Origin: Ulva prolifera
Taxonomy: Eukaryota; Chlorophyta; Ulvophyceae; Ulvales; Ulvaceae
Reading direction: 5' to 3'
DNA: 64,000 nt
Assembly (NCBI GenBank): GCA_023078555.1
Contig: CM041197.1
Span: 6,965,810-7,029,809, forward strand
Below, piece after piece: positions 13,901 through 37,340 of this stretch. A program made the position numbers and the translations under genes. Position 1 is the stretch's first letter. The number at the start of each line of letters is the position of its first letter. The notes beneath the pieces are model-generated. The model ran no database searches. It was not told where the DNA came from and was given only the letters and a program-made list of their open reading frames with translations.

Positions 13901-13949
13901 TGGTGCCCAAGAGTGCATCCTGCAACATCACACGTCACGTGCGTTGCCC

Positions 13950-16467: not shown

Positions 16468-18230
16468 GTGTTTGAGGACGTCCTGGTGTCCAGGAGTGCT
16501 TTGTGCACCATCGCCCGCCACGTGCGTTGCCCATGCCCGGCACGTGCGCACGCCCGCACGGCCAGATATGCACATGCAGGTTTGACAATTCTATTGAAAA
16601 CATGGAGAAGGTTATCATGTTATGCATTCGTGTTTGAGGATGTCCTGGTGTCCAGGAGTGCTTTGTGCACCATCGCACGCCACGTGCGTTGTCCATGCAC
16701 GCCATGTGCGTTGCCCATGCACGGCACGTGCGCACGCCCGCACGACCAGATATGCACTTGCAGGTTTGGCAATTCATTTGAAGACATAAAGAAGGTAATC
16801 ATTTGGTGCATTCGTGTTTGAGGACGTCCTGGTGTCCAGGAGTGCTTTGTGCACCATCGCACGCCACGTGCATTGTCCATGCACGCCATGTGCGTTGCCC
16901 ATGCACGGCACGTGCGCACGCCCGCACGACCAGATATGCACTTGCAGGTTTGGCAATTCCATTGAAGACATGAAGAAGGTAATCATTTGGTGCATTCGTG
17001 TTTGAGGATGTCCTGGTGTCCAGGAGTGCTTTGTGCACCATCGCACGCCACGTGCGCTGTCCATGCACGCCATGTGCGTTGCCCATGCACGGCACGTGCG
17101 CACGCTCGCACGACCAGATATGCACATACAGTTTCAACAGCTCCATTGCAGACGTGAAGAAGGTTATTATGTCATGCATTCGTGTTTGAGGATGTCCTGG
17201 TGTCCAGGAGTGCTTTGTGCACCATCGCCCGCCACGTGCGTTGTCCATGCACGCCATGTGCGTACCCCATGCACGGCACGTGCGCACGCCCGCACGACCA
17301 GATACGCACATGCAGTTTAAACAGGTCCATTGCAGACATGAAGAAGGTAATCATTTGGTGCATTCGTGTTTGAGGACGTCCTGGTGCCCAAGAGTGCATC
17401 CTGCACCATCACACGTCACGTGCGTTGCCCATGCACGGCACGTGCGCACGCCCGCACGACCAGATGTGCACATGCAGGTTTGGCAATTCCTTTGACGACA
17501 TAAAGAAGGTAATCATTTGGTGCATTCGTGTTTGAGGACGTCCTGGTGTCCAGGAGTGCTTTGTGCACCATCGCCCGCCACGTGCGTTGCCCATGCCTGG
17601 CACGTGCGCACGCCCGCACGACCAGATATGCACATGCAGGTTTGACAATTCTATTGAAAACATGGAGAAGGTTATCATGTTATGCATTCGTGTTGAGGAT
17701 GTCCTGGTGTCCAGGAGTGCTTTGTGCACCATCGCACGTCACGTGCGTTGCCCATGCACGGCATGTGCGTTGCCCATGCACGGCACGTGCGCACGCTCGC
17801 ACGACCAGATATGCACATACAGTTTCAACAGCTCCATTGCAGACGTGAAGAAGGTTATTATGTCATGCATTCGTGTTTGAGGATGTCCTGGTGTCCAGGA
17901 GTGCTTTGTGCACCATCGCCCGCCACGTGCGTTGTCCATGCACGCCATGTGCGTACCCCATGCACGGCACGTGCGCACGCCCGCACGTCCAGATACGCAC
18001 ATGCAGTTTAAACAGGTCCATTGCAGACATGAAGAAGGTAATCATTTGGTGCATTCGTGTTTGAGGACGTCCTGGTGCCCAAGAGTGCATCCTGCACCAT
18101 CACACGTCACGTGCGTTGCCCATGCACGGCACGTGCGCACGCCCGCACGACCAGATGTGCACATGCAGGTTTGGCAATTCCTTTGACGACATAAAGAAGG
18201 TAATCATTTGGTGCATTCGTGTCTGAGGAC
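16468..18230. repeat. Third copy of the ~1.77-kb higher-order repeat
   Basis: It matches the blocks at 10361 and 12134 (offset 4,334 bp from 12134), including the GTTATTATGTCATGC monomers and the T-deleted start at about 17692. It is separated from the first two copies by other monomer combinations, so copies of this unit are dispersed within the array. Confidence 0.75.
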
Positions 18231-18862
18231 GTCCTGGTGCCCAAGAGTGCATCCTGCACCATCGCACGTCACGTGCGTTGCCCTTGCACGGCACGTGCGC
18301 ACGCCCGCACGACCAGATATGCACATGCAGGTTTGACAATTCCTGTGAAGACATAAAGAAGGTAATCATTTGGTGCATTCGTGTTTTAGGACGTCCTGGT
18401 GTCCAGGAGTGCTTTGTGCACCATCGCACGTCACGTGCGTTGTCGATGCACGCCATGTGCGTTGCCCATGCACGGCACGTGCGCACGCCCGCACGACCAG
18501 ATATGCACTTGCAGGTTTGGCAATTCCATTGAAGACATAAAGAAGGTAATCATTTGGTGCATTCGTGTTTGAGGATGTCCTGGTGTCCAGGAGTGCTTTG
18601 TGCACCATCGCCCGCCACGTGCGTTGTCCATGCACGCCATGTGCGTACCCCATGCACGGCACGTGCGCACGCCCGCACGACCAGATATGCACATGCAGGT
18701 TTGACAATTCCTGTGAAGACATAAAAAAGGTAATCATTTGGTGCATTCGTGTTTGAGGACGTCCTGGTGTCCAGGAGTGCTTTGTGCACCATCGCCCGCC
18801 ACGTGCGTTGTCCATGCACGCCATGTGCGTACCCCATGCACGGCACGTGCGCACGCCCGCAC

Positions 18863-18865
18863 GAC
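18863..18865. repeat. Left target-site duplication (GAC) of the CACTA element
   Basis: GAC immediately precedes CACTA here and recurs right after the other end at 36156-36158. An unoccupied satellite monomer reads CCCGCACGACCAGATATGC with a single GAC, so this is a 3-bp duplication, as expected for CACTA/EnSpm integration. Confidence 0.95.
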
Positions 18866-18883
18866 CACTAGGAGAATGGTGAC
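18866..18883 (+). repeat. Left terminal inverted repeat, 18 bp
   Basis: CACTAGGAGAATGGTGAC matches the right end (36138-36155) at 18 of 18 positions in inverted orientation. The flanking bases (GTGG against ATTC) diverge at once, so the repeat is sharply bounded. Confidence 0.97.
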
Positions 18884-19215
18884 GTGGTGGTGAGGAACGT
18901 GCGAGGACGGCTCGCGGAAGAGGGATGGATGCGTGGCGGAGCCCCCGGAACGGCGAAAGGATTGTTGGCGGAGCGTCCGGAAGGCAGCCCGGAGCGTGGG
19001 CGGAAGTTCCGCGAGCGTTCCGACCGGGTGGTTTCCAAGTGCACTCCACGTGGGTATTCCGCCGGAACGTTTCCGGAGTGGTGCCGGAACGCGCGAAGGA
19101 TCCGCAATGCATCCAGAGGACTGCTTGAGGAAGAATGCTTAAAATTTCGGAATGATTCCGGATCCGGGGACGTTCCGGCAGAGCCTTGCGGAAGCCGCCT
19201 AGAAGCCTGGACGAA
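18884..19215. promoter_or_regulatory. Left subterminal region rich in CGGAA/TTCCG
   Basis: I count 14 occurrences of CGGAA or its complement TTCCG between about 18914 and 19195, in both orientations. Clustered short motifs next to the terminal repeat are typical of CACTA elements, where an element protein (TnpA in maize En/Spm) binds them to pair the ends. A 135-codon frame at 18884-19291 is best explained by base composition and is not called as a gene. The binding role is inferred. Confidence 0.7.
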
Positions 19216-19838
19216 CATGCTGGTTCATGAGGGGTTATTACTTGGTTACTCTCTGATCGATTGTGCCGGAGGCAGAGTACGTACGTGGTGAGGTCAGCGA
19301 GGCCTCCTTTACATGTGTGCCACGTGCATGTTGCCGTTGATACGGATGTGACTCGGTATCGGTGTTTGTTATCTCCCATTCACTCTATTTTAACAGGTGC
19401 ACCAAGTTTTCAACGAGTTCATGATGATATGCGTACGCAAAACTGCCTTTCCCGCAAGACCGTATGTCATGTACGCACCATTCGCGATTCTCGTTTGACC
19501 GCGAAACTATATTCATGATGTATACAAGCAGCATGTACACCGTGGTTCCGAAACAAGACAGCTTTGTTGATGTGTTCACACGTGTTTGTAGGCAGGCGGT
19601 CATGCATAGGCAATCATAAACTAGTATTGACATTGCTTACATTGAGATCTCTTCACCTTGTGACCTCTGCATGTCCATACGGAACGACATTACTACTATA
19701 ACAAGTCATGCCACGTCTAACATGTCATATACCCCACTCATACACTCGGTCACGACCGCCTGTGTTCAGGGACAGTATCTTCTCAGCCCCCGTTGGTGTC
19801 CAACTAATAGACAGACATCTTCAACCTGAGTCTTCACC
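19216..19838. other. No gene seen; downstream region of the coiled-coil gene
   Basis: This 623-bp stretch lies between the left subterminal zone and the stop codon of the minus-strand coiled-coil gene. It is less GC-rich than its surroundings. An 82-codon minus-strand frame at 19385-19633 has no recognisable motif and no clear splice partner. It may hold the 3' untranslated region of the neighbouring gene. No repeat or RNA gene was recognised. Confidence 0.5.
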
Positions 19839-22453
19839 TCACGACAGCATCTCAATCAAGGTCTGTTGAAGGTCCCGGACCTCCTCCTGCACGCCCCGCC
19901 GCTGTATCATACCGCTTACAGTACACACATATTGAGATATACTTGTTGAGATTTACTGTGGCATACCTTGTCCTGTTTGATTGATTCATCGAGCTTCTTT
20001 GCCTGCTGACCCTTCCGGTTGCGGGCGGGGCCGGATGCCAGCTTCGCTAATTCGTCCTCAGACTTGGCTATTCTTTCATTGAGAACTTCGAGGGCATGCC
20101 TGAGACACTCTTCGTCGGCCTCTGCCTGGCGCTTCTCCAGAGCCGGATGCGTATCCTTCTTCTTTGCCTTCTGCAGAACAACGATGCTGTCACACGATCT
20201 CTCGCACCTACGGAAACAACATGACCAGCATATATACGATTTTGATGCATCAGCAAGCGCACTGCATCATCATGAACGCGCGTACATGAGCCTGGGCTTA
20301 TGATAGCACAGTTTATGTCAACCTTGTGGAGGTATGTACAGATCAAGGCGTACCGGTTCATCCTCCTGTATGTCCATGTCTGCTGGGCCGCTTCGCCGAG
20401 TCTTGGGCTGTGGCATCTCGTCGTCCGCAACTTCCGGGGCGGCTGCCACTATGTGGGGTAGGACCTCGAGTTCTACGTCATCGCTGTCAGTCGGAGGTAC
20501 ATCCTTCCGTGTTCGGTTGAGAATCGGAGGTGAAGGGGGGAGATCGGCGATTGACCTGTCGCTGCCTCTCTTGCGGGCGCGTCTCCCGCCGTTGCTGGTC
20601 TCGGCCTGCGTAGCAAAGCATGTCGCGATTCTGTATCGACGCGACTTCCACGGCTGACATCGCTTTAATATCCCTGCGTCATGTACAGCATGGCCGCGAA
20701 GACGTACCCGGCCACCCTGTTGGCTCCTCCGGTGGGTGGAACGCAACGGAGATTCCGCTGTCTGTTCCTTTTTCATCTCACCCAGGATGAAATCCCTAAA
20801 GTAGTGGTTGTCAGCCACGTACACTCCGTCTTCCCGTGCCCACTGCGCGGCCGACTTCATCGTGCCATCGCCGTAAGCAGTCCTGGTTCCGATTCTGGAC
20901 AGCTGCATGTATAGGTGATGTGTCAGTGGCGTGCGCTTGTCGCGTGCACTAGGATGCTGTTGCCTAATGTGCTCGTTGTGCAGTAGCAAAACGTCCACAT
21001 CAGATGGGTCAGTTAGGCGCGGAGCACGAGAATGGTTGGTGGGCCACCAACCATTCGGGCATGCATGCATGTCAGTATTTTCACGCGCCTCGGAATGGTT
21101 GGTGGGCCACCAACCATTAGGGCATGCATGCATGTCAGTATTCACGCGCCTCGGAATGGTTGGTGGCTCACCAACCATTCGGGCATGCCTGCATCACACT
21201 ATCCACGGGCCCCGAATGGTTGGTGGGCCACCAGCCATTCGGGCATGCATGCATGTCACTATTAACGCGCCTCGGAATGCACGCGCCTGTTCTGCAGCAC
21301 GCGCCTGTTCTTCCTCTACGTCCTTCACTGCCGCGGTCACTCTCGGGTCCTTGCGGTCTCGCTCGCTCCGCCGCATCTTCTTGTTGTGATCAAAGGCTCG
21401 TCGAGGGGAACCGCTGCAAGAAAAGGTTGATCACGACTGTGCGTGTGTGCTTACACGAACACAGGATGACCACCGATTACGGCCGAACATGTGCATCCTG
21501 ACACAGTCGTGATGTCGCATGCTCAAGAGGAAACGTACTTGTACTTCACGTCCCTCAACATGCTTTTCTGGCCCCGAAATGCTTTTACTATGTTCCTCGC
21601 AGCCGTGTACGCCGTCCCCTCTTTGCCCGCCTGCATAAGTCAATCAAGTCTGGTCGTCATCGATGTACTGTGGTGGCCATTGCGTCCCGCGGCGCACGGT
21701 CCGCGGCGACCACTTCCAGCACGAAAACAGCACTTGGGTCAATCACACTACACGCTCAGCCATACAACACAACACGAAATCATCCCAATCCACCGTAATC
21801 TTCACACTACCGTATGGCAACCGCCCCAGCAAGTCCGCCCGGCGATACAGAGTCAAGTTGTTAGCAGGCTAGCACAAGCGTACCCCCGCTGCTGCCGCTG
21901 CGATCGCACCAACGTGCTGATGCATCAGCATACTTCCTTCATACATCCGCAGCTTTGGGTCGCCGGTGTCCTTCAGCAGCGCCTGCATGAGCGGAGACGC
22001 CTTGTCCTCGTCCCTCATCTGGCCCAGGATCGCCGACAACTTGTCAGTCCACATCAGCACTCCCGACTGTAGTACCTCCCATACATGATCGCTGTCGCCC
22101 GTCGCAGCGGTAGCAGTGGAGGCCGCTGTGCGTGCCGACGCCCCTGGAGCGGAGCCTCGATTCCGGGGGTTGATGGGCTGGACCAGCACCGGGGGCTCGA
22201 TGCCGCCAGCGATCTTCCCCTTCTGGAAGTAGAAAGAAATACATGTCTTCAGGGACTCCACGTTGTCGACGTCCAATGTGGCCTTGCTGTCGTTGGCCGA
22301 CGACAGTGTCATGCCGTCCGACCCCCCTCCCCTTCTCCAGATACTCCTCGCTAGCACATCCAGCATCCCATTCGCAGAATCGTCGTCCGCTGTCTCTTTG
22401 TCGACGACGATCGCGGCATCTCGCTTGAACTGGAATTGAAGGCTGTCCGACAT
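19839..22453 (-). CDS. Multi-exon coiled-coil protein of the CACTA element, possible accessory DNA-binding protein
   Basis: I do not recognise the family. The first ATG is at 22453 (MSDSLQFQFKRD). Phase-consistent exons on the minus strand are 22453-21884, 21630-21545, 21413-21320, 20902-20782, 20673-20354, 20170-19967 and 19901-19839, giving about 485 aa. A further exon may lie between 21883 and 21631, where the frame LPYGSVKITVDWDDF is open. Charged, helical segments (KDPRVTAAVKD; ALEKRQAEADEECLRHALEV; EEVRDLQQTLIEML) predict coiled coils near the C-terminus, and RRARKRG is a likely nuclear signal. It is transcribed divergently from the transposase. Its 417-bp intron (20903-21319) contains the 61-bp palindrome array. 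The position and nuclear signal suggest a TnpA-like partner binding element ends, but that is inference. Exons 1 and 5-7 are the best supported. Confidence 0.6.
20903..21319 (-). other. Proposed long intron holding the palindrome array
   Basis: On the minus strand the donor GTAGAG follows AAGGAC at 21320, and the acceptor CATGCAG precedes 20902. Both junctions are phase 0, joining VTAAVKD to LSRIGTR. At 417 bp it is far longer than the 65-140-bp introns elsewhere in the element, because it holds four 61/62-bp palindrome units. Alternative splicing into the open frame at 21060-20910 cannot be excluded. Confidence 0.5.
21031..21277. repeat. Four-unit palindrome array, 61/62-bp period
   Basis: Units start at 21031, 21093, 21154 and 21215. 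Each has arms AATGGTTGGTGG and CCACCAACCATT around a central base, followed by a spacer rich in GCATGC and CACGCGCCTCGG. The same palindrome core occurs with a different spacer at 27181-27303 and 35228-35690. The arms could form a hairpin in single-stranded DNA or RNA, or be a two-fold symmetric protein site. Confidence 0.9.
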
Positions 22454-22732
22454 CGCGACGTATACACCAGAGAGGACCGGAACCAAACAGACACTTAGCA
22501 GCCAATACGTTTACAGTAACTCCAACTTCTTTGGTACTTGGCAAAGCCTATCCGTCGATGCTGATATCCAACCTTTTGAAAACACAGTGCCGTGTTGGTG
22601 CCCGGCCATTGGCCACAGGGACACTCCCTCGTTACATCCTCACGCATGATTATCCCCCGCCACTCAACTCGTCCCCGAGTACGCTTGCACTACGCCTGAA
22701 CCTCGTTCATACCACGCCGCTCGCTTGCCGCG
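22454..22732. promoter_or_regulatory. Divergent promoter between coiled-coil gene and transposase
   Basis: The 279-bp spacer separates the ATG of the minus-strand gene (22453) from the first in-frame ATG of the transposase (22733). It contains GCCAATAC near 22502 and the inverted CCAAT core in GCCATTGGCC near 22607. No clear TATA box is seen. It is the only space available for both promoters. The motif assignment is tentative. Confidence 0.55.
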
Positions 22733-24980
22733 ATGTCTTTCCACGCATCCAAGCAGAGTTCATCGACGTTTACTGTGCAAAGAATGGCTCCGCGTAGGCG
22801 TAAGCGTGCTGTCGACGACGACCTTGCAGAAGTTGGCGTGCTGCGCCTTGATCCTCCACTTCATGATGGGGACCGAAAGTTACTATACAAGTGCACAAAA
22901 TGTAGTAAACCGTTTGACAGGATTCTGACTGCCCAGAATCACCCCCGCGCCTGCCCCGGGGGACAAGCCGCGGCGCGCGCTCAGACTCGTGACGAGGGCA
23001 CGGGAGGTGACACAGGCAACCAGCCAGTGGCGGGCAACCAGCCTCCCGGCGTTGTCGACCTCGGTCGAGTCGACGAGGTCCTCTTCGAGGTGCGCCTGTC
23101 CCTGATCACCTCGTCTGCTCTCGAGTGCTGACTATCTGGTGATCGTGATTGGTGTCATGTGGCCAGGTCCCTGAGGGCTCCGACGTATCCGAAGAAGACT
23201 ATGGAGACGAAGATGTGGACAGCCTATACGACGACGCCAGCAGTGTCTTCTCCAGCCTGTCAGGAGATGACTGGGACACAGACTCTACTAAGGTTTGTCC
23301 TTTCGGTGTCTCCCGACGCAGCCTGATTATCCGATTTGCTCTTGTGCTGGGCACCCACCCCCTGCTCCCTGTCGGTGTAAATGGCTGGTGAATATGTGCA
23401 GAGCGACTCCCTCGATGGCCGCGAGGGTCCACAGGTCGCAGCTGAGGCTGCAGCCGTGAAGGGGACTGCCGCATGGTGGCGTCAGAGACGGATGGATCCG
23501 GTCTCCGACACCTGCCGTCTCACAGTGTTGACTGTATCAATGTGGATCGCCAGCCTGAAAAGCATGTTCCGGATGAGTGATGTTGTGGTGGACATGTGGT
23601 GTCGTTTTGTGCATTACCTACTCTTACCAGATGGGAATATGTTCCCCCCATCCTTCCACCTGGTCAAGGCTGTCCTGGCTGTACCAGATGTCTCTTCAGT
23701 GACCCGGCACGTGTGCCCACAGTGCTGGACTCTCTTCCCAGGTATAAAGCCGTGTGATCATACCCGCCACTTGGACGACGTCTGCAACACCCCAGGGTGC
23801 ACCCAGAAGCGTTTCGAGGTGGACCTGGCAGGCAAGGGTGCACCTTGCCGGAGTGTCTTCTACTTTGGGGAGGCCGCATCGCTGAAAGACCTGATTCTGC
23901 AACCTGGCGTCCTTGCCGCGGTTCGTGCTCATCGAGTGCACGCCCTAATGGATCCCGCCGGTTTCTGGCAGTCTCCTACCGGACGTGCCCTGAACGCCGC
24001 ATGCGGCGGTATTTTCGACAAGGCTGACCCGGACGAAATTGCACTGCTTTTCAGCTTGGCTGCGCCCGGCTTGAGTTCGACCTATCCTGCGTCCCCGTCA
24101 CTCAGTCGCCAGGTCATCAATATCATCTGGGTCCAGTGGGGCCCGCAGTAGCCTCTCCCCGACACTAAGTCCGCTTGCAGGGGGTGACGGCGCCCAACTG
24201 TACGTGAACAAGCAACACGGGACCACAATCTGGGGCATCCGCCTGCTGGACCTCCCCCCTCATCTGTCTCATTGCAATGAGGCCTGGATCCCCCTGGGGG
24301 TAGTCGAGGGCCCAACTGAACCCACGAACATGGACAGCATCCTTGCACAGGTCCTCGAGTTCTTCAAGAAGCATGACCCAGGTACGTGTCAGTCTGGCGA
24401 GTGTGTACCCACCGCACACTCACGTCCGCCCAGTGCTTAATGTGGCTGTGTTCACTATAAACCCCCTACAATGCAGCCAGGAAGGGGGAGGACGGGGTCG
24501 AGGCTCTCAAAGTCGAGATGCCTGACGGAACAGTTCTGCGCATCTGGCCTGTGCTCTGCTGTGTGGAGGGCGACATTCCGTGGATGCAGAAGTTGACCAA
24601 CAGCATCGGGCACGGCGGCAAGAGGGCGTGCTTCCGTTGCGCCCAGAACGGCGTCTGGGTGTTCGCAGCCAACACAGTTCGGTATGTTGGCTCCAGTTGC
24701 CGTGCCGTCGCCATGCTGCCTCTGACCACCCCTGCTTACCCCTGGCATCCCTGCCAAGCCCGCCTCCGCCACCCCCTCCGACATGGCTGGGGGGCTCACT
24801 ACTGTCCTTATCAGACATCCGCCGTGCAGCTGGCTTGGGTTCCACGGCCCGGTCATCCAGCCTCAGCCGGTTCACGCTGCGGGGCCTGATCAAGGAAAGC
24901 CCCTCACAGCGGCGCAAGAGACGGAGATTGCCGCGGGGGCGGTGCCGAGGATGGTGCCCGGCAGTATGGAACCAGACCCC

Positions 24981-25018
<38 letters not shown>

Positions 25019-27138
25019 GCACGAAGTGGTCCGAGGTTACCACCATCGACCCGGCGACACTGGCAAAGGACTGCCGGCTGAAGTACTCTGCTTCAGAGAT
25101 GTGCGCTCGCGGCCACACAGCAGACTTGTTGATCGATCAGGTGCGGCTACCCTTGTATTTGTATCTTTCCTCTGTCCTGCGGCCCATGTGCCAGCATGCA
25201 TGGTCGACGTTCTGCCATCACGCCCACCAGGTGGCTTGCATGCAGACCACCAGCCCCACGTTGGACCGCTACACCGCCAAAGACACCCTGCTGGAACGGC
25301 AGAAACTTGCGAAGAAGGAGCACATCCGCCTGGGGGTGAAAGGGTCCTCCCTGTTCAGCAGCCTCTCATACTTCAAGTGCGCACCCCTACCTCATGACAG
25401 CTGCCATACCGTCATCTGGACCCACGAATTCACCGTGACGGATGTTGTTCTTGCAGTCCCTGCCACTTCTTCCGCTACGGCGTCGCGCACGTGTTCCTCC
25501 TTGGCATCCTCATGGACTTCTGGAATCAGTGGCTGCCGAGTTCGAAGCGGCGTAAGAAAGCCCGCCCAGCAGGCCCCCGTCGGTTGTATCAGCTGCCTAA
25601 AGAGGTGGTGGCCCAGATCGCTGCCCGCGCGTCCCACATCATGCACACTTATCTGTTCAAGAAAGTGTACACCGACATCACCAAGTGCGGTCACTGGTTA
25701 CTGCTGGCAGCTGTCCCATGCACACGTGTCGTGAGCCTTACAGCTCGTGGAGGGCAGCAGGTGGCTCGCTTCAAGTTTGCACTGCTGCAGGCACCGGTCT
25801 CGGTGGCTCATGGCGGACTGGCTTGCGTTCACAGAGACATTCTCCCTGTACTTGCTGCACGACCTCAAATGGGAGCCCGACCAGGAGGGTGTTCGGCAGG
25901 TGTTCGAGGAGATGTGGACGCACCTCCGAGCAGGCACCCTGTACTTCCTGCGGTACGAGGAGCTCCAGCATACCGCACCCCGGATCAAAGCAGCTCAAGA
26001 CGCGTTGATGAAGTACGGCGCGATGGCAGAAGATCTCTTTGGGGGGGAGGTTATCTGCACCTTCGAGCTTCATGTTGCAGCCTGGCACCTACCGGACCAG
26101 GTGAGATGCTGTGGGCCTTCGTTCTTCTGTCTGGAGTTCTGTATCGAACGCATGGTGCAGCTACTCAAACGGCTGATCAAATATCGTTCCACCAAATCAC
26201 CAGAGAAAGTGTATGTCAACGATGAGCTGCTGCGGCGCACATGTATGAGATTGCTTCACAGCAGCGATACGGCAGAGGCGGCCATGCACACGTTGCAAGA
26301 GGCCGTGGCCTCTGAGAAACGCCGTCGGTCAAAACGGAGCAAGGTCCAGGCCGCAGTGGGCGACAGCGACTCTGATGGCGGTGATGACAACAGGGTGTTT
26401 GGGGCGGGTAAGGACCTCGACGCCGAAGAGAAGAAAGAAGTGATGCCGCTGGGGTACACGGGGGTCGGTGAGTTGTCCGGGCTGCCATACCTGCTCTACC
26501 ACCAGGACGCCCTGCAGGAGGTAGGGTGGCCGACCCAGCGGGTCCTGGGGGAGGGCTACGGTAGGAAAGAGGCCATCATGCGAGCGCTTGGGCTGCCGGT
26601 CGCTGGGGAAGTTGTTGCTGGGCGGCAGCTCTGTGAGGTGCACCTACGAAAATTCCTGCGAGGGCGGGCTTTGGTAGGGGATGTCCTGACCTGTGCGCAG
26701 CACACCGGTCCGGGTAAGAAAGACAATCGATGGTGCCTGCTGAAGTACCATGTAGTAGAGGAGGGTACGAATGTGGGCCAGGATCGGTACTATGTGGGCG
26801 ACTTGCAGTACATAGTCCGTGCCAGGCTTAGCACGGCAGATGGGTCTGGTATCTGTAGAACCTGCACTGTCGAGGCCAGAGACCTGTATCTCGGTGTGAC
26901 AGACGTGTACGACTGTAGTACTCCCTATACACCCGGATGCAGGGAGGCGGATGAGGTGCTGAACCGCGCTCCCGAGTTTTACAGGGTGGATGGTGTGCAT
27001 CACCGTTCCTCGGCTTACACTGGCCGGTATGTAGTGAACATAGATGCTATGGCCGGGCAGCTGGTTCCGGTGAAACGGACGGCAGGAGGTGTTCAGTACT
27101 GGCAGACAGCCAATAAGGCCTCCGGGCGTACTGTGTAA
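22733..27138 (+). CDS. CACTA/EnSpm transposase, Tnp2-like, ten exons
   Basis: It should cut and join the element ends in the nucleus. Exons with matching phases are 22733-23089, 23167-23292, 23402 to about 24074 or 24104, 24181-24381, 24477-24681, 24815-24941, 25027-25140, 25231-25376, 25457-25684 and 25791-27138. They give about 1,174-1,184 aa with no internal stop. A second ATG at 22784 (MAPRRRKRAV) is an alternative start. Residues 54-74 form a C2HC zinc finger (CTKC, then H and C). Exon 2 is acidic. Exon 3 has further paired cysteines (CPQCW; CNTPGC). Tnp2 hallmarks follow: GDGAQLY with a likely catalytic Asp, WPVLCCVEGDIPW, ACFRCAQ, LGVKGSSLFSSLSYF, AHVFLLGILMDFW, and HLPDQVRCCGPSFF then LEFCIER with a likely catalytic Glu. 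The D-x-M-H of plant Tnp2 reads GVAH here, so the second acidic residue needs alignment. The only uncertain junction is the third donor. Confidence 0.87.
24942..25026 (+). repeat. 33-base poly-C run inside a transposase intron
   Basis: C24984-25016 lies in an 85-bp intron (24942-25026). The donor GTGCCG and the acceptor ACGAAG are both phase 0. The run sits where a polypyrimidine tract is expected. Read as coding it would be poly-proline in a frame that does not connect to the next conserved exon, so the intron reading is preferred. Such runs are prone to length error in assemblies. Confidence 0.75.
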
Positions 27139-27180
27139 ACAGGTCATCCCCCAGATGGCGGGATGGGACCACCATGCGGA

Positions 27181-27411
27181 ATGCATGTGCCCAGTCAGCG
27201 CCATCGTGGAATGGTTGCTGGCCCACCAACCATTCCGCATGCGTGCAATGCATGTGCCCAGTCAGCGCCATCGTGGAATGGTTGCTGGCCCACCGCATGC
27301 GAGCAATGCACGTGCCCTGCACGGCTGAAGTGTCTACAGGAAGCCCGCGTGCACAGTGTCGATGCTGTGACGTCCTGTGGATCTCGCCAAGGCCAGCCTG
27401 GTTTCTAATGG
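27181..27411 (+). promoter_or_regulatory. Promoter module of the unknown gene: palindrome units plus 108-bp block
   Basis: About 1.6 palindrome units (27181-27303) are followed by 27304-27411. That 108-bp stretch matches the reverse complement of 35111-35218 with about four differences. In both places the order is palindromes, then block, then start codon: 180 bp here to ATG 27591, and 116 bp for the protease gene. A TATA-like TTTATAT lies at 27425-27431. It occupies the only space between the transposase stop and the next gene. Promoter function is inferred from position and duplication. Confidence 0.7.
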
Positions 27412-27590
27412 CGAGGTAATTCCCTTTATATGAGGCATCGTCGGCCCCGCGTGTCTTTACTGCATCGATCTCCACTCTGACCTGTGTGTACGTACGCGGT
27501 ATTGTCCCTCGGCTACTGACGCCGGCAGTACCCAAGCGCGTACTGCGTCTCGTTCAATACCCGCTAGCTGTTAAATTAGTTTTACAGAAG

Positions 27591-28857
27591 ATGTCGGCCG
27601 TAGGCGGCGAGGGTGCTGTTGCCTGCCGTGAAGGGGATGTCCAGCCTGACACCAGCGTCACAGTAACCATCCCGCATAGCCGTCTGCGGGTGGCGCTATT
27701 GCCCGCTATTGGGACATTAATATCTAGGTCAGGTCATTTCACCAATGTGGGGCGGGTCGGGCCCAAAGGGACGCCCGACTCCCACGCTGCTTGCGATGCT
27801 TGGTTTGACGTCGGGCTACAGGTCGTAGACCGGGTCGAAACAACCGTAGATCAGAGCGTTGCATTCGTGAAGTATGCTGTAGTCCTCGCCTGCCTGCAAC
27901 TCGGGGGGTGGCTGCGCGAGCAGGAGAGGATGTTGGTGCCCGCATGGGAGGGACTATCCGCACCCCCGCCTGGATGTGACGCCCCTTTGGCCTGGGTCAA
28001 GCTGTATGGTAGGAGGAAGGTGTGCCCATCTCAAGTGATTTTGATCCCGTCGGCTCTGCTACAGGACCCCTTGGAGGGCACTCCTAGCGCCCTTGCCCGG
28101 CCGCCACGCCGGCCCATTGTCGGGGCCTTCGACCTCATGAGGTTACCCCGAGCATGCAGGAACTGGTCAGTGGACATGTGCGCCCACGTGCCCCACCGGC
28201 GCCCGCACAGGCTTCGGATTCGGGTCGCGCCGGGCCTGCCGGCTCCGAGACAGTGCAGCAGAGCGATAGGGCGGTGCTTGGGGTCCCGTCCTTGCCGAAA
28301 ACCAAGAAGCGGAAGGAGGCGGACCCAGCCCCGAAGGCAGACACCGGTGCGTTTCAGTATTGGGTTTATGCCAAGTCATGCATTGTCGCCCGACTTGTGC
28401 AGCCGTATGGTTACGAATGCAGGTTTTGCGGAGTATGCGGTGACCGGCCCCCGGTCCATTCTGTGGGCCTGGTGCTTTTTTTTCAGTCGCATCCACCCTG
28501 ACTCCCAGCCCATGAGGGTGCCGTCCAACAAGCGGCAGAAAACCGGGGCGGAGACGGACAGTCAACAGCCCATAGGCAAAACCAAGGTGGCTGAGCCCAC
28601 CTGTAATGTGCCTGTCGGCATGAATCCGCTGTGCACCCTGTTCTTGACCGAGAAGACACTGGCCCGCACTTTTTGCGGTGAAGACGATCTGACCCCAAGC
28701 CAGCAGCTGGCGCAGAGGGTGTACCTGCAACCCTCCTGCCGCGCCGTGCTTGCACAGCATGCTGGCGCCCCCTCTACCACGGTGACACAGCTCTCCGCCG
28801 CCAGTAATCTCCTTTACCAGATCCACATCTACTTCCCTCTTCTGATTGAAGTTTATG

Positions 28858-28888
<31 letters not shown>

Positions 28889-31352
28889 TTGGAACCCCAC
28901 TTGTGTCAGGCATGCATGGTCACCGAGATTATCGAGGTCCGGTAATACTCGCTGGTAGCCTGTTGGTGTTGTCCCTCGTTCTGACTAACAATTCATCAGT
29001 TAGACCGGTCGTGGACTCGGGGTAGCTTTTGGCTTACATTCCCTCTGCCTCCAGGACATGGACACCCTCGGGGATTTTGTGGAAGCCGTCGCAAATCTTG
29101 CGCCTTTCGTAGTGCAGTACGCTGCGACGCATCCTCTGATCAAACCGGCGCCGGTGCGGCCCCTATGGACATGTATCGTGCTGTAGTCACGCTGATGATG
29201 AGTTTACACGTTCACCAATCGACTGGCGCTTCCCTAACAGATCTGCCTTGTAGGAGACCGATGTGTCTGTGATATTGTGTCCGTGGTTCGCATCTGTCGG
29301 GGCATTTCACCTAGCCATCCTCAACGCTGCTGTTTCGTACATGCCAGTACGCAAGGGCCGGTCCACCTGCGACTCCGGGCTGCAGCTGTGCATCCGATCC
29401 TACCATGTTATGGTGTACGGAACGGCGCACTCAGACCCGGATTTCAGTGCTCGGCTGCCAAACTGGCAGCTTGAAGCTCATCGTTTGGACAGCCGCTGCT
29501 TCGAGGACCCTCTTTATGCGGCCATATTCGTCACCGCCGTGAACACCTCTTGTGCGCACCTGGGGTTTCCCATCCAATCCCATGTACTGATGATGACGTA
29601 TCCGAATCATGGTGTGTTGGGATTGCCTCCCCGAGTAAGTGACCGGGTACACGGCTCGATATGCAGGGCTGACCGCCTGGGGCGTCGGGGCTCCCGTGAA
29701 AGACTTCACCAGCCTCCTCATTCCCTTGTGCCCGCCAGATACACTCTGGCATTGGGGGCTGAGGGCGTGGCGGTACCTTTGCACCGTCTCTGCAACCCCG
29801 GCTGCCCAAGAGCAGGGTGGGGTGAAGAAGAAAGCCAAGTGGTTGACCCTGGTGCCCTCGTCGTTCCAGGACATTGACGACTGGGGGTACAACGGGGCCA
29901 CTGCTCTGGCTACAAGAGCCATCGCCATGGGCCTACAGAATGAAGTCTGCTCCAGGTGTGCGGATGTGCCTACACGCTGTTTGGGGAAGTTCCCATCATA
30001 CTACAGTTGTATCGGATCGGTGTTTTGTAGCTTTTAGGACAGTCGGCTGTAACGCATGCTCTGATTATCCAGGATCGAGTTCAGCCACATCCCTAACTGC
30101 GTCCTGCAGCAGCTCCCCCCCGGTTCACAGCGTGTACCGCAGGTGTCTACTGCCGAGGTGGGTGGCAGTAGTCGCACGCGTACAGACGACAGTCCATGGG
30201 GAGTAGGGGCTGGCGACAAGCGGGACAGAGGTGATCTCGATGTCGCGCCCGGTAAGGGAAGCAAGCCCCGTCATGGCGCCACAGGTTTGGTGGTGGGGCA
30301 GTCAGCGGCTGGTGCTGGGGGTGCTGGTGGGGCTGACCCCGCCACCGCGGCCGGGGGTGCCGCTGCCGGCGCGGCTGATCAGGCCAAGCCCTCTCTGTGC
30401 GCCACGGGTGACGGGGGGGAACAGTCAGCGGCTGGTGCTGGGGGTGCTGGTGGGGCTGACCCCGCCACCGCCGCGGCCGGGGGTGCCGCTGCCGGCGCTG
30501 CTGATCAGGCCAAGCCCTCTCTGTGCGCCACGGGTGACGGGGGGGAACATTCAGCGGCTGGTGCTGGGGGTGCTGGTGGGGCTGACCCCGCCACCGCCGC
30601 GGCCGGGGGTGCCGCTGCCGGCGCTGCTGATCAGGCCAAGCCCTCTCATGGCGCCACGGGTGACGGGGGGGAACAGTCAGCGGCTGGTGCTGGGGGTGCT
30701 GGTGGGGCTGACCCCGCCACCGCCGCGGCCGGGGGTGCCGCTGCCGGCGCTGCTGATCAGGCCAAGCCCTCTCTGTGCGCCACGGGTGACGGGGGGAAAC
30801 AGTCAGCGGCTGGTGCTGGGGGTGCTGGTGGGGCTGACCCCGCCACCGCGGCCGGGGGTGCCGCTTCCGGCGCTGCTGATCAGGCCAAGCCCTCTCATGG
30901 CGCCACGGGTGACGGGGGGGAACAGTCAGCGGCTGGTGCTGGGGGTGCTGGTGGGGCTGACCCCGCCACCGCGGCCGGGGGTGCCGCTGCCGGCGCTGCT
31001 GATCAGGCCAAGCCCTCTCATGGCGCCACGGGTGACGGGGGGGAACAGTCAGCGGCTGGTGCTGGGGGTGCTGGTGGGGATGACCCCGCCACCGCGGCCG
31101 GGGGTGCCGCTGCTGGCGCTGCTGATCAGGCCAAGCCCTCTCTGTGCGCCACGGGTGACGGGAGTGGGCCATCGCTGTCCTCTTCCGAGGGGGGGTGGGA
31201 TGGTGAGAGTGTGGAATGGGGGGTCGCCTCGAGCCTGTATGGACGCAACGCCGCTAGGTGGCCTGATGGGGGAACCCTCCTGGATACTCTTGCCCGAGTT
31301 TCTGGGATTGCCAGCCCCCCCCAAGACCCCTCCACCGGGGTCCCAGACGGGG

Positions 31353-31398
<46 letters not shown>

Positions 31399-31982
31399 TG
31401 CAAGCGGTGGTTTGCCCTTCAACTCACATGACCCTGCTCTCGGCCCGCAATATAACCCTGCATCCGGGCAGGTGCTTCATGGCTTCGACCCCTCCACCGC
31501 TCTGGTTCCGTCGGTCGGGGTGACTGTTAACACGCAGGATAACAGTCGGCAAATTGTCATAACCATAGACGACGAGCTGCCTCCGTCCGGGAACGCCACC
31601 TGCAGCAGGGAGACTCTACTGCATTGTGCCGCCGCCACCTGGCGCATCATGACGCGTTGCAACCAGCGGCTCCAGTCGCCCGGTGATGACCAGAGGATCA
31701 TGCTCATGATGGTCATCTCTGGGCACGGCCTGATCCCTGATCCTGCCGCTATGGACGAGGTTATCCTACTAAGTCAGGAGGTGTGTCGCATGCTGGCTCC
31801 GGGGCCTGAATCACGGTGCTTTGTATGTCCTCATCGATGTGCATGGGATTACGGAGTGAGACAATCAGGGGCAGTGTAACAACTTGGCGCCTGTGCAGAC
31901 TCCCCAGGACGACGTGGGGGACTTACTGGAGACGCTAGACCTACTGGCCGCACCTGGAGATCAAGCTGTCGAAGATTCGTAG
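27591..31982 (+). CDS. Large CACTA-encoded protein of unknown function with 41/42-aa repeats, nine exons
   Basis: No family recognised. Starting at ATG 27591 (MSAVGGEGAVACREG), phase-matched exons are 27591-28019, 28160-28350, 28487-28850, 28910-28936, 29055-29153, 29254-29611, 29667 (or 29739)-29955, 30073-31822 and 31899-31982, about 1,196 or 1,172 aa. Two basic patches (KTKKRKE near residue 190; NKRQKTG near 220) suggest nuclear import. A central part (PWFASVGAFHLAILNAAVSY; WHWGLRAWRYL) looks globular. Exon 8 encodes seven Ala/Gly-rich repeats of 41 or 42 residues, then a glycine run and a well-conserved-looking stretch (VTVNTQDNSRQIVITIDDEL). The C-terminus is acidic (DDVGDLLETLDLL). The gene lies 452 bp after the transposase, converges on the protease gene, and shares that gene's promoter module, so the two may be co-expressed. 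A role as element cofactor is inference. The 27-bp exon and exon 7 acceptor are least certain. Confidence 0.65.
28851..28909 (+). repeat. 27-base poly-C run in an intron of the unknown gene
   Basis: C28862-28888 falls in a proposed 59-bp intron with donor GTTTATG at 28851 and acceptor TTGTGTCAG ending at 28909. As in the transposase gene, the run lies upstream of the acceptor and could serve as an all-C polypyrimidine tract. Confidence 0.6.
30296..31165 (+). repeat. Coding minisatellite, seven units of 123/126 bp
   Basis: Units start near 30299, 30421, 30547, 30673, 30799, 30922 and 31045, each beginning CAGCGGCTGGTGCTGGGGG. Lengths are 123 or 126 bp, always a multiple of three. The 3-bp difference adds one alanine. 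Each encodes about QSAAGAGGAGGADPATAA, then GGAAAGAADQAKPS and a CATGDGGE or GATGDGGE tail. Frame preservation supports a translated repeat. The complement is also open and would be proline- and histidine-rich, but it has no conserved neighbours. Confidence 0.85.
31354..31396 (+). repeat. 43-base poly-G run, coding for glycine
   Basis: The run sits in exon 8 of the unknown gene between GVPDGA and PASGGLPFNS and reads as about 14 glycines. The frame continues correctly on both sides at the length given. A change of one base would break it, so its true length matters. G runs this long can also form quadruplexes. Confidence 0.7.
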
Positions 31983-32292
31983 ATTCCATGCTGAGGCAGG
32001 GGTCTGGGGTTGGGGTGGCCTGTCGTGCAGCGTGTACGACAGTTGGGGGATACGTGGTGCCATTCAGCAGTGCTGGTGCCACCACGCCACATGGTTCTAG
32101 GCAAGTACGGTATTGTGTAGTGTCGGATCTGGCTACGGATTCATCAAGTCCCCTGTACCCCGTGTCCGCTTAGCATTACACACTACAGCTTATGCACTCG
32201 AGCTTCCACACGATATGTTACAACCGCTGCCGCCCTGACAAGAACCTACCCCTGACCGCAGCCATGCTTTTATAAAAACGCATTTATACCTG
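31983..32292. other. Spacer between two convergent genes, nothing recognised
   Basis: The 310 bp between the stop codons of the unknown gene (31982) and the protease gene (32293) must hold both 3' ends. A minus-strand frame at 32190-32459 overlaps it but is out of phase with the protease exons. No repeat, RNA gene or clear polyadenylation signal was recognised. Confidence 0.5.
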
Positions 32293-34994
32293 CTATGTCT
32301 TTCGATTGAGCGGCGGCAGTGGCGTCTTGAACAGAGCTTTGTATTGAGCCCCGAACACTCCATCCGGCTTCTGAACACTGCGGAGTATGTCGGGCCACAG
32401 TGTCGTCTGGAATAGGTGCCTGCAACATTGAGTGATTCAGCTACGGAAGGAGGTCGCACTTGCCTACCTGGTGAAATGCAAAGATTGTCAGGGTCTATAC
32501 CTCACTTCTTCTTCTGACTGGTCTGGGCAGATAGCATCATCCAGGTTGATGTCCCATCTGGCATCGGTCAGGATTCTCCGAGCTTCCGCCACCCCAACGT
32601 CACCCGCGTCGTCGCCTGCACGCCCTCTCTTCTCCCATTCTTGAATCAGGGATCGTCCGATGAGAATCCGATACAGGACCACCTCCTCTGCCTTCAGCGC
32701 CTTCAGTCTACCGACGACCAACCGGTCAACGCTGCTGCCATCTCTGAGCTGAAGTGGCGTCTCGTCCTTGCGTTTGTTGTCCACCTGTTTGATTACGTCA
32801 CACACAGTCTCTGCATACAGGCACGTGAAAACGCCGCAGTCGTACGTGTTCCGCTGCTGTGGGACGTCTTTCACCTGTACACCCACCTTGTGTATGGGAG
32901 CTGAGCCTACGTCTGCCCAGGTGTTGTATGTCAAACCGGGATGCAACCCCTCCTACAGTGTCAGGCGGCGACTGCCGAGTAGGACGCACCATGCGTAGGT
33001 TTAGTGTTTGCTTCGGCATCAATGCTGGCACATTCCCCTGTTTGGCGCCCCGCTTTGGCAGAACCCTGGGCCGACCACCCGACTGAACCTTGGGCAAGGG
33101 GGGGAGGGCGGGGGCGCCGTCAAGGCACTGACACAGAGCCACGCTCATCACCTCATTGATGGCGGTCGGTGCGGTTCCCGAGGCGCTCGGCAGGGAGTCA
33201 TACCAGCTCATTGTAGGGCTCTTTCCTGACAGCAAGAGTCCTGCGAATCGGCATGTGATGTATCAGCCCCCCGTTGCGTTGTGGATGGTGGGGGTAGCAC
33301 CAAGGACATAATGCAGTCAGGGTCATTGGAGCCGCACCTGGCGAGTACACCACTGCAAGTCCCCAGTGCTTCCCGGTGGGGACCGGGATGAGGATACACC
33401 TCGCTGCTAGTGCTTTCGCCTTCTTCAGCCACGCGATGAGGTGTTGGAGCATCGCGCGGGCCTCTGCGTCGCTGCTGGGGTCCCGACTGGCCAGGCCCTT
33501 CAGGTGGTCGGACGGGACGGCAATGACCCCCCCTCCGGCCAAGACTGCAGCCTTGACTACCCCATACTGGACTGAGGTGCTGCTGAACCACTCCGCGACC
33601 CAGAAATCCCTGAAGTGCAACACAGAGACGGTGATGGAGACCGTCGCGTCCTCAAATTTGCCGAGCTGCACCCCTACACCCTTGATAAATGAGGATCCTG
33701 AACAACCCTCAATGTCGTCCGGTCCGAACACCTGGCCGCGGAGGCGTACCCCTGTGGGGTCGTCATGAGAAGGTTCGGCTGCCAGCCACACCAGCGGGCG
33801 CGTCTGAGCCCTCTCCAGGGCTTGGAGTAGAGGCTGCCTCCGAACATCGCTACCCGGAGGCAGCAAGCACGCTGGAGACAGCGTCCCTGGCTGGACTGCC
33901 GAGGGACCTGCAGCGGCCTCCCCACCGTCTGGGGTGTCCACCTCCATAGGCGTGGCACCTCCGGCATCCTGGCGCGACGGCCCCAGAGGTGGCTCTGGGG
34001 GGACCACTGCAGCCGCAGCTTGTGCTGCGCCGTGGGCCCGCCGGCGGGGGACGGCGGGCTGCATCAGTGGATGCCCGATTGCAGCCCCCCCCGCCACTGT
34101 GGGGCCGGCGCTGCCTCCTCGTTGTGCCCCCACCGCTCCATCTTTCCGTCCAGCAGCGCCTGGATCACGTGTCCGGGTCTCACGTGACCCGGGAATACCG
34201 CCTGTGCAAACTCGCAAGGTGGACTCGTGGACAACACTTTGCCCTGAGGATTCCGCCTGCTGGATCGGCGCCCTGACGGGGGCCGGCGATTGGGCTGCGC
34301 CGACCACCCCTCCACGTGAGTCCGATGGCTGCCCTCCCATGCTCGCCAGATGGGCCGGCACATCTGGGGCCGAGAGAGGCTGCTCAATGACTGGCTCTCT
34401 CGGCCACATCGGGGTGGTCTGCGGCTCGCTATCCCGCAGCCTTCCCCACCATGCTATAATCGGGGCCCCTCCGACTGTCATCTGGATTCGCAGGAGCATC
34501 CCCCCCATGTCCTCGTCGAACCCCTGGGTCGTGGCTATGGACCGGTACAGCTGGATCTCCGGTGGCCCGCATGGGGCTCCGGTCTGTACCGCCCGCTCAA
34601 AAGCGCCTTCACGAAGCACTACCCATAACATTTTGAGGTGGATGGTCGCAGCGCTGTACTCAGTCGTCGCCTCCATGTACTCCGTCGTCAGCATTCGTCG
34701 CATTGCCTCGAAGGCTGCCATCATCCGGGGCCCCGCTGCTTCGTCGCCGGCTAATATGCTATCTATTGTGGCTACATCGCAAGCTGTTAACAGCCACCCG
34801 CATTCCATCAAGTCGACTGGAAAACCGAGTGGTCGGTACTGGACCAGTCGCGGTATACTCTGCCCTGGTAACCAATTGCCCCGCGCTGCTACCTTTACGA
34901 ATTCAAAAAATGTGGGCTCGTATTGTTTTTTTTCCTCAAGGACGGCGAGGTAATGCGACACGTTCGCCGGACTGATCCTGGTAATTATCCTCAT
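32293..34994 (-). CDS. Ulp1-like (C48) cysteine protease encoded by the CACTA element, four exons
   Basis: Predicted to cleave SUMO or another ubiquitin-like modifier. Exons on the minus strand are 34994-33338, 33225-33089, 32952-32501 and 32419-32293. All phases match and give about 790 aa. ATG 34994 (MRIITRISPANVSHY) is chosen because the longer frame to 35279 runs into the promoter palindromes. Residues 1-250 look helical and globular. Residues 250-430 are a Pro/Ala/Gly-rich linker. The protease domain fills the rest: CILIPVPTGKHWGLAV carries His543, MSWYDSLPS carries Asp562, and DVPQQRNTYDCGVFTC carries the oxyanion Gln and Cys637. All four catalytic positions of the C48 family are present. 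A 37-bp intron (32953-32989) is a less likely alternative for intron 2. Ulp1-like proteases are known passengers of several plant and algal DNA transposons, including KDZ elements and some MULEs. Their role in transposition is not settled. Confidence 0.87.
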
Positions 34995-35110
34995 TGCGAC
35001 ACTGCAGAGTAGGCACGACCAGGTTCGCGTCAAATGATCCACGGTGATACTAGGCGCATGGTGTACTGTAAAGGAGGTATATGGATACAGCGCGTGTGAG
35101 AAGCGCGTGT
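34995..35110 (-). promoter_or_regulatory. Proximal promoter of the protease gene
   Basis: This 116-bp stretch separates the protease ATG from the duplicated upstream block. On the minus strand it has an A/T-rich CCATATACC at 35084-35076, about 85 bp before the ATG. It does not match the corresponding segment of the unknown gene, so the two promoters share only their upstream part. Confidence 0.4.
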
Positions 35111-35690
35111 CCATTAGAAACCAGGCTGGCCTTGGCGAGCTCCACAGGACGTCACAGCATCGACACTGTGCACGCGGGCATCCTGTAGACACTTCAGCCG
35201 TGCTGGGCACATGCATTGCTCGCATGCGGAATGGTTGGTGGGCCAGCAACCATTCCATGATGGCGCTGACTGGGCACATGCATTGCTCGCATGCGGAATG
35301 GTTGGCGGGCCACCAACCATTCCGCGATGGCGCTGACTGGGCTCATGCATTGCTCGCATGCGGAATGGTTGGTGGGCCACCAACCATTCCACGATGGCGC
35401 TGACTGGGCACATGCATTGCTCGCATGCAGAATGGTTGGTGGGCCACCAACCATTCCGCGATGGCGCTGACTGGGCTCATGCATTGCTCGCATGCGGAAT
35501 GGTTGGTGGGCCACCAACCATTCCACGATGGCGCTGACTGGGCTCATGCATTGCTCGCATGCGGATTGGTTGGTGGGCCACCAACCATTCCACGATGGGG
35601 CTGCCTGGGCTCATGCATTGCTCGCATGCGGAATGGTTGGTGGGCCAGCAACCATTCCACGATGGCGCTGACTGGGCTCACGCTTATCGA
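35111..35690 (-). promoter_or_regulatory. Promoter module of the protease gene: 108-bp block plus seven palindromes
   Basis: Bases 35111-35218 are the inverted, ~96% identical copy of 27304-27411. Seven palindrome units with a 67-bp period follow (starts at 35228, 35295, 35362, 35429, 35496, 35563 and 35630). Each unit has arms GGAATGGTTGGTGG and CCACCAACCATTCC around one central base, then a spacer with GATGGCGCTGACTGGGC and GCATTGCTCGCATGC. Units vary at a few bases, mainly in the spacer. The array is upstream of the protease gene and also only ~465 bp from the right end, so it could serve transcription, transposition or both. Confidence 0.75.
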
Positions 35691-35961
35691 TGAGGGCTCG
35701 TTTATCGATAAGGGCTCACGCTTGTAGATCGGCGTGTCCGCGTCGCTTGTGCGCATCGCATCTACAGCTTAAAGTGCACAATTCATTCCAAACTCCACTG
35801 CTATAGGTGCACTGCGTTATCCATGAACATTCCCACGCTTAGACTGCCGGTCCAACCTGTGCGCGACAGGCTCAGCATGCCATGGCTTCCCACTGGTTCT
35901 CACCTGCGCGGGCGGCCTGTTCCTCGCCGTGGAAGAGCCCGCAGTCCTGTCAGCAGGAAAG
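35691..35961. other. Spacer near the right end, no gene seen
   Basis: It contains a short direct repeat (TTATCGAT and TTTATCGATAAGGGCTCACGC around 35686-35721, TTATCGATAA being nearly palindromic) and otherwise unique sequence. No conserved frame or RNA gene was recognised. Confidence 0.5.
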
Positions 35962-36137
35962 CATAGGACATTCCGCGGCCACCAAGGAAGCCATCGGACA
36001 TTCCGCGGCCACCAAGGAAGCCATAGGACATTCCGCCACCATCGTTCCTTGTGAAGCATACGCACGCGGGCGGAAGGTCAACAGCCTCGTAGGAACGTTC
36101 CTCTGTCAGAGGAACGCCTTCGGTTCCGCCCCGGAAT
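35962..36137. promoter_or_regulatory. Right subterminal region with 30-bp tandem repeat and TTCCG motifs
   Basis: A 30-bp unit beginning CATAGGACATTCCGCGG repeats at 35962, 35992 and 36022, the last copy being partial. With the following sequence there are six CGGAA/TTCCG motifs, plus AGGAACGTTCCT near 36091, an inverted repeat. The motif matches the left subterminal zone, so this is probably the counterpart end-recognition region. Confidence 0.7.
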
Positions 36138-36155
36138 GTCACCATTCTCCTAGTG
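36138..36155 (-). repeat. Right terminal inverted repeat, 18 bp
   Basis: GTCACCATTCTCCTAGTG is the exact reverse complement of the left end and stops at the TAGTG expected of a CACTA element. Confidence 0.97.
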
Positions 36156-36225
36156 GACCAGATATGCACATGCAGTTTTAACAGGTCCATTGCAGACATG
36201 AAGAAGGTAATCATTTGGTGCATTC
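36156..36225. repeat. Satellite remnant between the two transposons, starting with the GAC duplication
   Basis: These 70 bp continue the interrupted satellite monomer from GACCAGATATGCACATGCAG to TTGGTGCATTC. The first three bases (36156-36158) are the second GAC copy, and the last three (36223-36225, TTC) are the left duplication of the next element. Confidence 0.95.
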
Positions 36226-37340
36226 AGGCTCCCGCAAAAACATAGCACGTGAATCAGCGGCCTCGTCAGAGATACGCCCTTACAGCCGGCGGCGGCGTAG
36301 ACTATACTACCAGCGCCCCGAGGATACCGACAGCCGTGCCAGGAATCCATGCTGGGACATTTGTCGGCGTAGCGGTGGACGTCCGAGTCTCAGTGTCGAG
36401 CTGACGTGGTGCATCTCAACCGGACTGAAGGTCCCCACATGCATGGGTCACGGAAGGACATGCAGCACGTAACACATCCAAGAATTCAGGAGACAAAACT
36501 GATCGCAGAGCATCTATAGATAAAGGTCTAATCATCTGCGCAGTAGCGCGCCTCGTCGCGACGCAGCCGCAGATCTGCATGCTCGTGTAGTCGGGCTCTC
36601 GGTGCAGCTCCAAGTGGGGCCCAAGACCAAGTGCACTCAACAATCCATATCTCAGTGCATACTTCTCGGATTGCGGTAATTTTTGGTTCCCTGGATCCGC
36701 AACAGTCCTCCCAGTTAGCTGGCGCTAAGGAAAAGGTACTAGGCGTTGTCTTGGCCCAAAAAACTACTTTTTCGTCACTGCAGGCTCCAGCAGAGAGATA
36801 CAGCCACTCAAAGGTAGCCCTTGTTCAAGGCCATGGGTGAGGCATGCCAGCCCTGCGCTGCCTCCAACTCTGTCAGCCAAGTGCCAACACATATTCCTGG
36901 TGCCTCGGGAAGTGGAATGCCACACTGTAATGGTGACCATACTGATTTCCCTGAGCATATGGCAGGTGGCCCATGCATGCCACATGTATTGAGCAACACG
37001 TTGTCACGACAGCAGCTCAAGTGCCGCTGACACGATCACGTTGTCGAAATTCATCGGTTGTGATGCCGCAGTCAAGGCTGCCTTGCGGCTGCAGGTGGAT
37101 CTTACTGCATAAAGTAGCTTTTCAGGCGTCACGTTCAAACCGTGAGTTTCCCCGCACGCCACGGAATGCGTTACCGCAGTTGAGCAAAATCAAGCAGTAC
37201 ACTCGAGCATTGTTCAAGCGGGAGCACAAATATTTCGGGATAGGCCTTGCCGATATCTTGCCCAGGTCTGGATGCGGAACGTCCGGGTGATCATTGCAGA
37301 ATGTCGATCGCGGCAACTGCTATGTTTTTGCGGCACCCAG
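36226..37340. mobile_element. 1,115-bp non-autonomous DNA transposon with TTC duplication
   Basis: Unique DNA interrupts the satellite between CATTC and TTCGTGTTTGAGG, where intact monomers read CATTCGTGTTTGAGG. So TTC is duplicated (36223-36225, 37341-37343). Near the ends are inverted repeats sharing CCGCAAAAACATAGCA, extended outward as GGCTC on the left and GGGTG on the right, about 21 bp with two mismatches and one or two extra terminal bases. No frame inside has recognisable motifs: the longest is 105 codons at 36973-37290. A GG-starting end with a 3-bp duplication would fit a PIF/Harbinger-like element, although Harbinger prefers TWA targets. The superfamily is left open. Confidence 0.75.

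Follow-up and report, generated by a model that had tools for sequence, protein, structure and literature searches.

A CACTA element of 20.5 kb, CACTA elements carrying Ulp1 and giant multi-gene EnSpm elements from algae have already been published. The 20.5-kb element, Tgmt* of soybean, is putatively autonomous (PMC2613891). ULP domains in five grapevine families, described as CACTA-ULP, are read as captured, and rice proteins hold Tnp2 and ULP1 together (PMC2528002). In Ectocarpus, giant EnSpm elements extend up to 15.2 kb, and red-algal EnSpm elements with several accessory genes are cited in the same work (PMC12477816).

The element analysed here lies in a 64-kb window (the whole stretch of DNA analysed, 64,000 nucleotides) and is a clean, ordinary new example of the known CACTA class of cut-and-paste DNA transposons, with a gene combination of its own; the present understanding of CACTA transposition stays as it was. 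No description of it was found in the literature searched, most subscription papers lying outside that search. It shares with Tgmt* the CACTA ends, the 3-bp duplication, a many-exon transposase gene and possible autonomy, and the asymmetric subterminal repeats of Tgmt*, able to form stem-loops, are a further likeness (PMC2613891). However, the ends of Tgmt* are 13-bp imperfect repeats whereas those of the present element are 18 bp and identical, and Tgmt* has one large gene yielding the transposase and a presumed binding protein, where separate genes are predicted here; the excerpts on Tgmt* describe no separate protease gene, in contrast to the protease gene predicted in the present element (PMC2613891). 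The division between transposase and subterminal-binding protein in En/Spm of maize is the model used here (PMC2613891), although any counterpart of the TnpA role among the proteins of the present element is only putative.

Like the CACTA-ULP elements of grapevine and rice (PMC2528002), the element is a CACTA transposon with an Ulp1-type protease domain, but here the protease is predicted to have a gene of its own, with three exons, running opposite to the transposase gene. A SUMO-type protease in this position extends the grapevine and rice pattern of proteases travelling with transposons (PMC2528002), and testing is simpler with a separate gene than with a fusion. Giant algal EnSpm elements, likened by description, resemble it in size class, in EnSpm class and in extra genes mostly without assigned function, and a gene opposite to the transposase strand likewise occurs in a giant Sola element (PMC12477816). 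The multi-gene layout as a whole recalls reports from algae, a resemblance that serves as a lead.

Element boundaries and the empty satellite site

1-18865 and 37341-64000: satellite, monomers of 162 and 184 bp
18863-18865, no strand: left copy of the target-site duplication GAC
18866-36155, no strand: whole CACTA element, 17,290 bp
18866-18883, plus strand: left terminal inverted repeat, CACTAGGAGAATGGTGAC
36138-36155, minus strand: right terminal inverted repeat, 18/18 identical to the left
36156-36158, no strand: right copy of the target-site duplication GAC

The right end is the exact reverse complement of CACTAGGAGAATGGTGAC without a mismatch, and the inverted identity between the two termini breaks off at base 19. 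Even with 3 mismatches allowed, the only two matches of the repeat in the 64-kb window are the element ends, against a mean of 0.01 matches in shuffled sequence (n = 100, no shuffle with 2); exact matches to the terminal inverted repeats numbered 0 in a collection of viral contigs. The repeats begin with CACTA (CAC..GTG) and are flanked by the 3-bp duplication GAC, checked against the satellite empty site, both of which are features of CACTA/EnSpm elements. The sequence of the element and window contains no N bases.

Most of the window is satellite, in which the 162- and 184-bp monomers form pairs with a period of 346 (Tandem Repeats Finder). Satellite anchors were located with up to 3 mismatches (n = 263), and at the position corresponding to the insertion point 247/263 read GAC and 241/263 read GACCAG. 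The original prediction that every neighbouring monomer supplies an unoccupied site therefore holds for nearly every monomer, though not strictly for all. Removal of 17,290 + 3 bp, together with a second insert of 1115 + 3 bp, gave anchor spacings over the scar of 184, 162, 162 and 184, which is the array's own rhythm. In the rejoined array the spacing is exactly 162 or 184 in 243 of 263 cases, the remainder being 183 (10), 161 (8), 160 (1) and 205 (1). When the reconstructed site was aligned to the satellite (blastn, E up to 1e-50), 260 of 288 alignments crossed both junctions, the best with 92.5% identity over 2024 bp.

As the ends, the GAC duplication, the empty sites and the restored satellite rhythm all agree, the boundaries are exact to the base. 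The earlier claims of base-exact limits, of 18/18 identical inverted ends and of matching GAC copies were all confirmed at the positions given above, and the further claim that the element is complete is supported as well; the element is likely full-length. Insertion into a regular satellite provides base-exact ends and a ready empty site from a single copy, and with both in hand the element is a good reference for its family in the host.

The second insertion (36226-37340, 1115 bp) occupies the same satellite stretch 70 bp downstream of the CACTA element and has imperfect 21-bp inverted ends (GGCTCCCGCAAAAACATAGCA, 90%) with TTC on either side; the satellite rhythm is restored only if this insertion and one TTC are also taken out. 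It is probably a non-autonomous DNA transposon from a different family. Within the satellite, the 162- and 184-bp monomers differ by a 22-bp sub-unit, and the single spacing of 205 is approximately consistent with one further sub-unit. One satellite word was absent from the collection of viral contigs, and three matches of an 18-base satellite word in Bacteroides/Bacteroidales contigs were taken as chance. Four sequence words from the element or satellite were absent from the published text searched, the coverage of which was partial. The window yielded no Rfam matches at gathering scores and no tRNA.

Predicted genes

19839-22453, minus strand: gene A, hand-made 7-exon model, 502 aa, coiled-coil-like C-terminus (by eye)
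22733-27138, plus strand: predicted transposase, hand-made 10-exon model, 1163 aa, with D388, D485, C(2)C 504, H(4)H 809 and E834
27591-31982, plus strand: gene C, hand-made 8-exon model, 1177 aa, seven 123-126-bp internal repeats
32488-35114, minus strand: predicted Ulp1/SENP-type cysteine protease (Peptidase_C48), hand-made 3-exon model, 766 aa

Four gene models were built by placing GT-AG introns with fitting phases by hand. Each ends in a single terminal stop, and when the models are read in +1 or +2 every frame contains 12 to 51 stops; since introns were picked to keep frames open, the intactness of the models is partly conditional on that choice, the least certain splice choices being those at the end of gene C and around exons 5-7 of the transposase. 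Searched singly, ten unspliced open frames had no Pfam hit (E ≤ 0.01), whereas the spliced models did. The four genes expected in the element are supported by four spliced models, and transposase and protease genes are both present as predicted, but as multi-exon models rather than the single open frames first supposed. TGTAA, a green-algal poly(A) signal, has 20 matches (6 plus, 14 minus strand) and was uninformative.

Transposases of EnSpm and its relatives show the motif order D, C(2)C, H(3-4)H, E (PMC12730594). In our model the only H(3-4)H among 1163 aa is at 809-814, with E834 after it, and the C(2)C at 504-507 is one of four instances of this common pattern. The spliced model shows the order, C(2)C and H(3-4)H both falling between the second D and E, where D388 and D485 are assigned as the two D by likeness and not by alignment. 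The presence of a transposase, as originally proposed, is supported by this predicted motif order. DUF4218, which adjoins the transposase domain in plant CACTA proteins, was the sole transposase-related Pfam family to match, and it scored below the cutoff (E 0.026 over the full-length model; two overlapping segments gave 0.0067 and 0.0031). Transposase_21 and Plavaka, presumably the Pfam models of the relevant transposase families, had no match in the ten open frames (E ≤ 0.01), the spliced model (E ≤ 1) or its segments (E ≤ 10). The D-x2-H expected in transposases of the CACTA/EnSpm clade is not evident at the expected place, which reads RYGVAHVF. PDB sequences gave no match (E ≤ 10), the AlphaFold2 model of exon 10 had a mean pLDDT of 41, unusable for a fold search, and no relatives appeared when two parts were compared with viral contigs and one part with phage records. 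A Zn_ribbon_8 match (E 0.084) was below cutoff and is not believed.

The protease model matches Peptidase_C48 above the Pfam cutoff (E 9.5e-11) and the SENP1 chain with E 1.4e-8 over a span that includes the His, Asp, Gln and Cys regions; its HW, YDS, PQQ.N and DCG align with their SENP1 counterparts, placing H, D, Q and C. Judged by its predicted protein, the element's 'protease' is a Ulp1/SENP-type (C48) cysteine protease, so that the gene claimed earlier is real by profile and residues, and it was found on the minus strand, opposite the transposase. Sub-cutoff matches to LupA (E 0.1) and HTH_5 (E 0.26, or 0.066 in one segment) were not believed.

Genes A and C gave no Pfam domain above cutoff, and neither gene A nor the first 580 aa of gene C had an NCBIfam match (E ≤ 0.1). 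In gene A, sub-cutoff matches to Snx8 BAR (E 0.028) and SesA (E 0.72) were not believed, nor was one to SET_TTL (E 0.01) in gene C. The C-terminal exon of gene C is uncertain, with an alternative stop at 31877-31879. Its internal repeats (30299-31162) are seven tandem units of 123-126 bp, encoding ~42 residues each and rich in Ala and Gly. Long homopolymeric stretches comprise 33 C at 24984-25016 and 27 C at 28862-28888, both in predicted introns, and a 48-bp G run (95%) at 31349-31396 within the predicted coding sequence of gene C.

Autonomy and age

The element is possibly autonomous, judging from its predicted genes. A competing explanation, to which we give somewhat less than an even chance, is that this is a non-autonomous or already inactive copy of the same class, mobilised in trans by a related element at another genomic site. 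There is precedent in the giant Ectocarpus families, where the predicted transposase is often a pseudogene, which implies mobilisation in trans (PMC12477816), and hand-chosen splice sites could conceal a defect in our models; yet all four models lack an internal stop, the transposase model has the full motif order and the protease retains the C48 residues.

Identity at 18/18 end positions tells little about age, since with neutral change as high as about 8% per site the ends would still be intact with a probability of 5%. The stop-free 10,824 nt of predicted coding sequence set a tighter, model-dependent bound of about 0.9% neutral change, assuming correct models and no selection on them after insertion. 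The element may be young, as first proposed.

Classification and proposed mechanism

18884-19183, no strand: left subterminal region, 13 CGGAA/TTCCG per 300 bp
35838-36137, no strand: right subterminal region, 6 CGGAA/TTCCG per 300 bp
35955-36044: three 30-bp direct repeats inside the right subterminal region

None of the other 260 canonical 5-mers in the two 300-bp subterminal regions is as enriched as CGGAA, which occurs there 19 times, counting both strands, compared with 39 times in the other 16.7 kb of the element. When the regions were shuffled 500 times the mean was 2.4 and the maximum 9, with 0/500 reaching 19. Reiterated subterminal motifs of this kind (13 + 6) are a feature of CACTA/EnSpm elements, in which TnpA-like proteins typically bind subterminal repeats (PMC2613891).

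The ends, the 3-bp duplication, the subterminal CGGAA enrichment, the transposase motif order and a weak DUF4218 match together lead to assignment to CACTA/EnSpm, and the CACTA class of the original prediction is upheld. Counting against it are the sub-cutoff DUF4218 score, the lack of Transposase_21, Plavaka and PDB matches, the D-x2-H not evident at its expected place and the hand-placed introns. We place the probability at about 0.93 that the locus is a full-length CACTA/EnSpm (CMC-clade) DNA transposon inserted in one satellite monomer by the following mechanism. An element-encoded DDE transposase, together with an element-encoded protein on the subterminal CGGAA repeats, would pair the 18-bp ends; the transposase would cut the element out and join it at a staggered 3-bp cut, duplicating GAC. 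The products of genes A and C are candidates for the putative CGGAA-binding protein. The protease may remove a SUMO or SUMO-like tag from the transposase or from a host silencing factor, and the present copy may still be mobile.

Membership of a related superfamily inside the CMCT clade, such as Plavaka, rather than EnSpm proper is unlikely. CMCT lineages mostly share CA..TG ends, 2-5 bp duplications and the same motifs, Plavaka transposases are recognisably similar to those of EnSpm (PMC12730594), and no strong family match separates EnSpm from Plavaka for the present transposase, but EnSpm is characterised by the combination seen here of CACTA ends, 3-bp duplication and subterminal repeats. 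KDZ (Zisupton) was set aside on its 8-bp target-site duplication (PMC12730594), compared with 3 bp here.

Palindromes and inverted module

21030-21279, no strand: a ~61-bp unit present four times, containing palindrome GGTTGGTGGGCCACCAACC, within a predicted gene A intron
27180-27411, plus strand: module upstream of gene C, duplicated in inverted orientation upstream of the protease gene
35111-35683, minus strand: module upstream of the protease gene, in which 67-bp tandem repeats contain the palindrome

The palindrome GGTTGGTGGGCCACCAACC occurs 12 times with up to 2 mismatches, in three places in the element: 4 sites in the predicted gene A intron, 1 upstream of gene C and 7 upstream of the protease gene. 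The right edge of the block of ~61-bp units overlaps the end of exon 3 in the gene A model. The module at 35111-35683 matches 27180-27411 at 93-98% in nine inverted pairs (I1-I9), and the inverted duplication (27180-27411 against 35111-35418) has arms of, for example, 119 bp (97%) and 115 bp (95%). Although satellite arrays are easily misassembled, an artefact joining two unrelated pieces within the satellite is very improbable, given the perfectly matching ends, exact duplication, restored repeat rhythm and absence of N, and because the inverted module links the middle to the right of the element and the palindrome common to both also occurs in the left part.

Turning from the CACTA/EnSpm assignment to the function of these repeats, GAATGGT is present in both the inverted ends and the palindrome blocks, a coincidence spotted after the fact. 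The element holds 25 copies (22 in palindrome blocks, 2 in the ends, 1 elsewhere), and the 45.5 kb of satellite hold 0. The element could be a self-regulating unit, in which one of its proteins would bind both the ends and the gene switches, coupling transposition to control of the accessory genes, while the Ulp1-type protease would strip SUMO-based silencing marks; we consider this distinctly unlikely. An overlap with the palindrome unit as large as that of the ends was found for 505 of 100,000 shuffled ends and for 496 of 16,060 ordinary 18-base stretches of the element.
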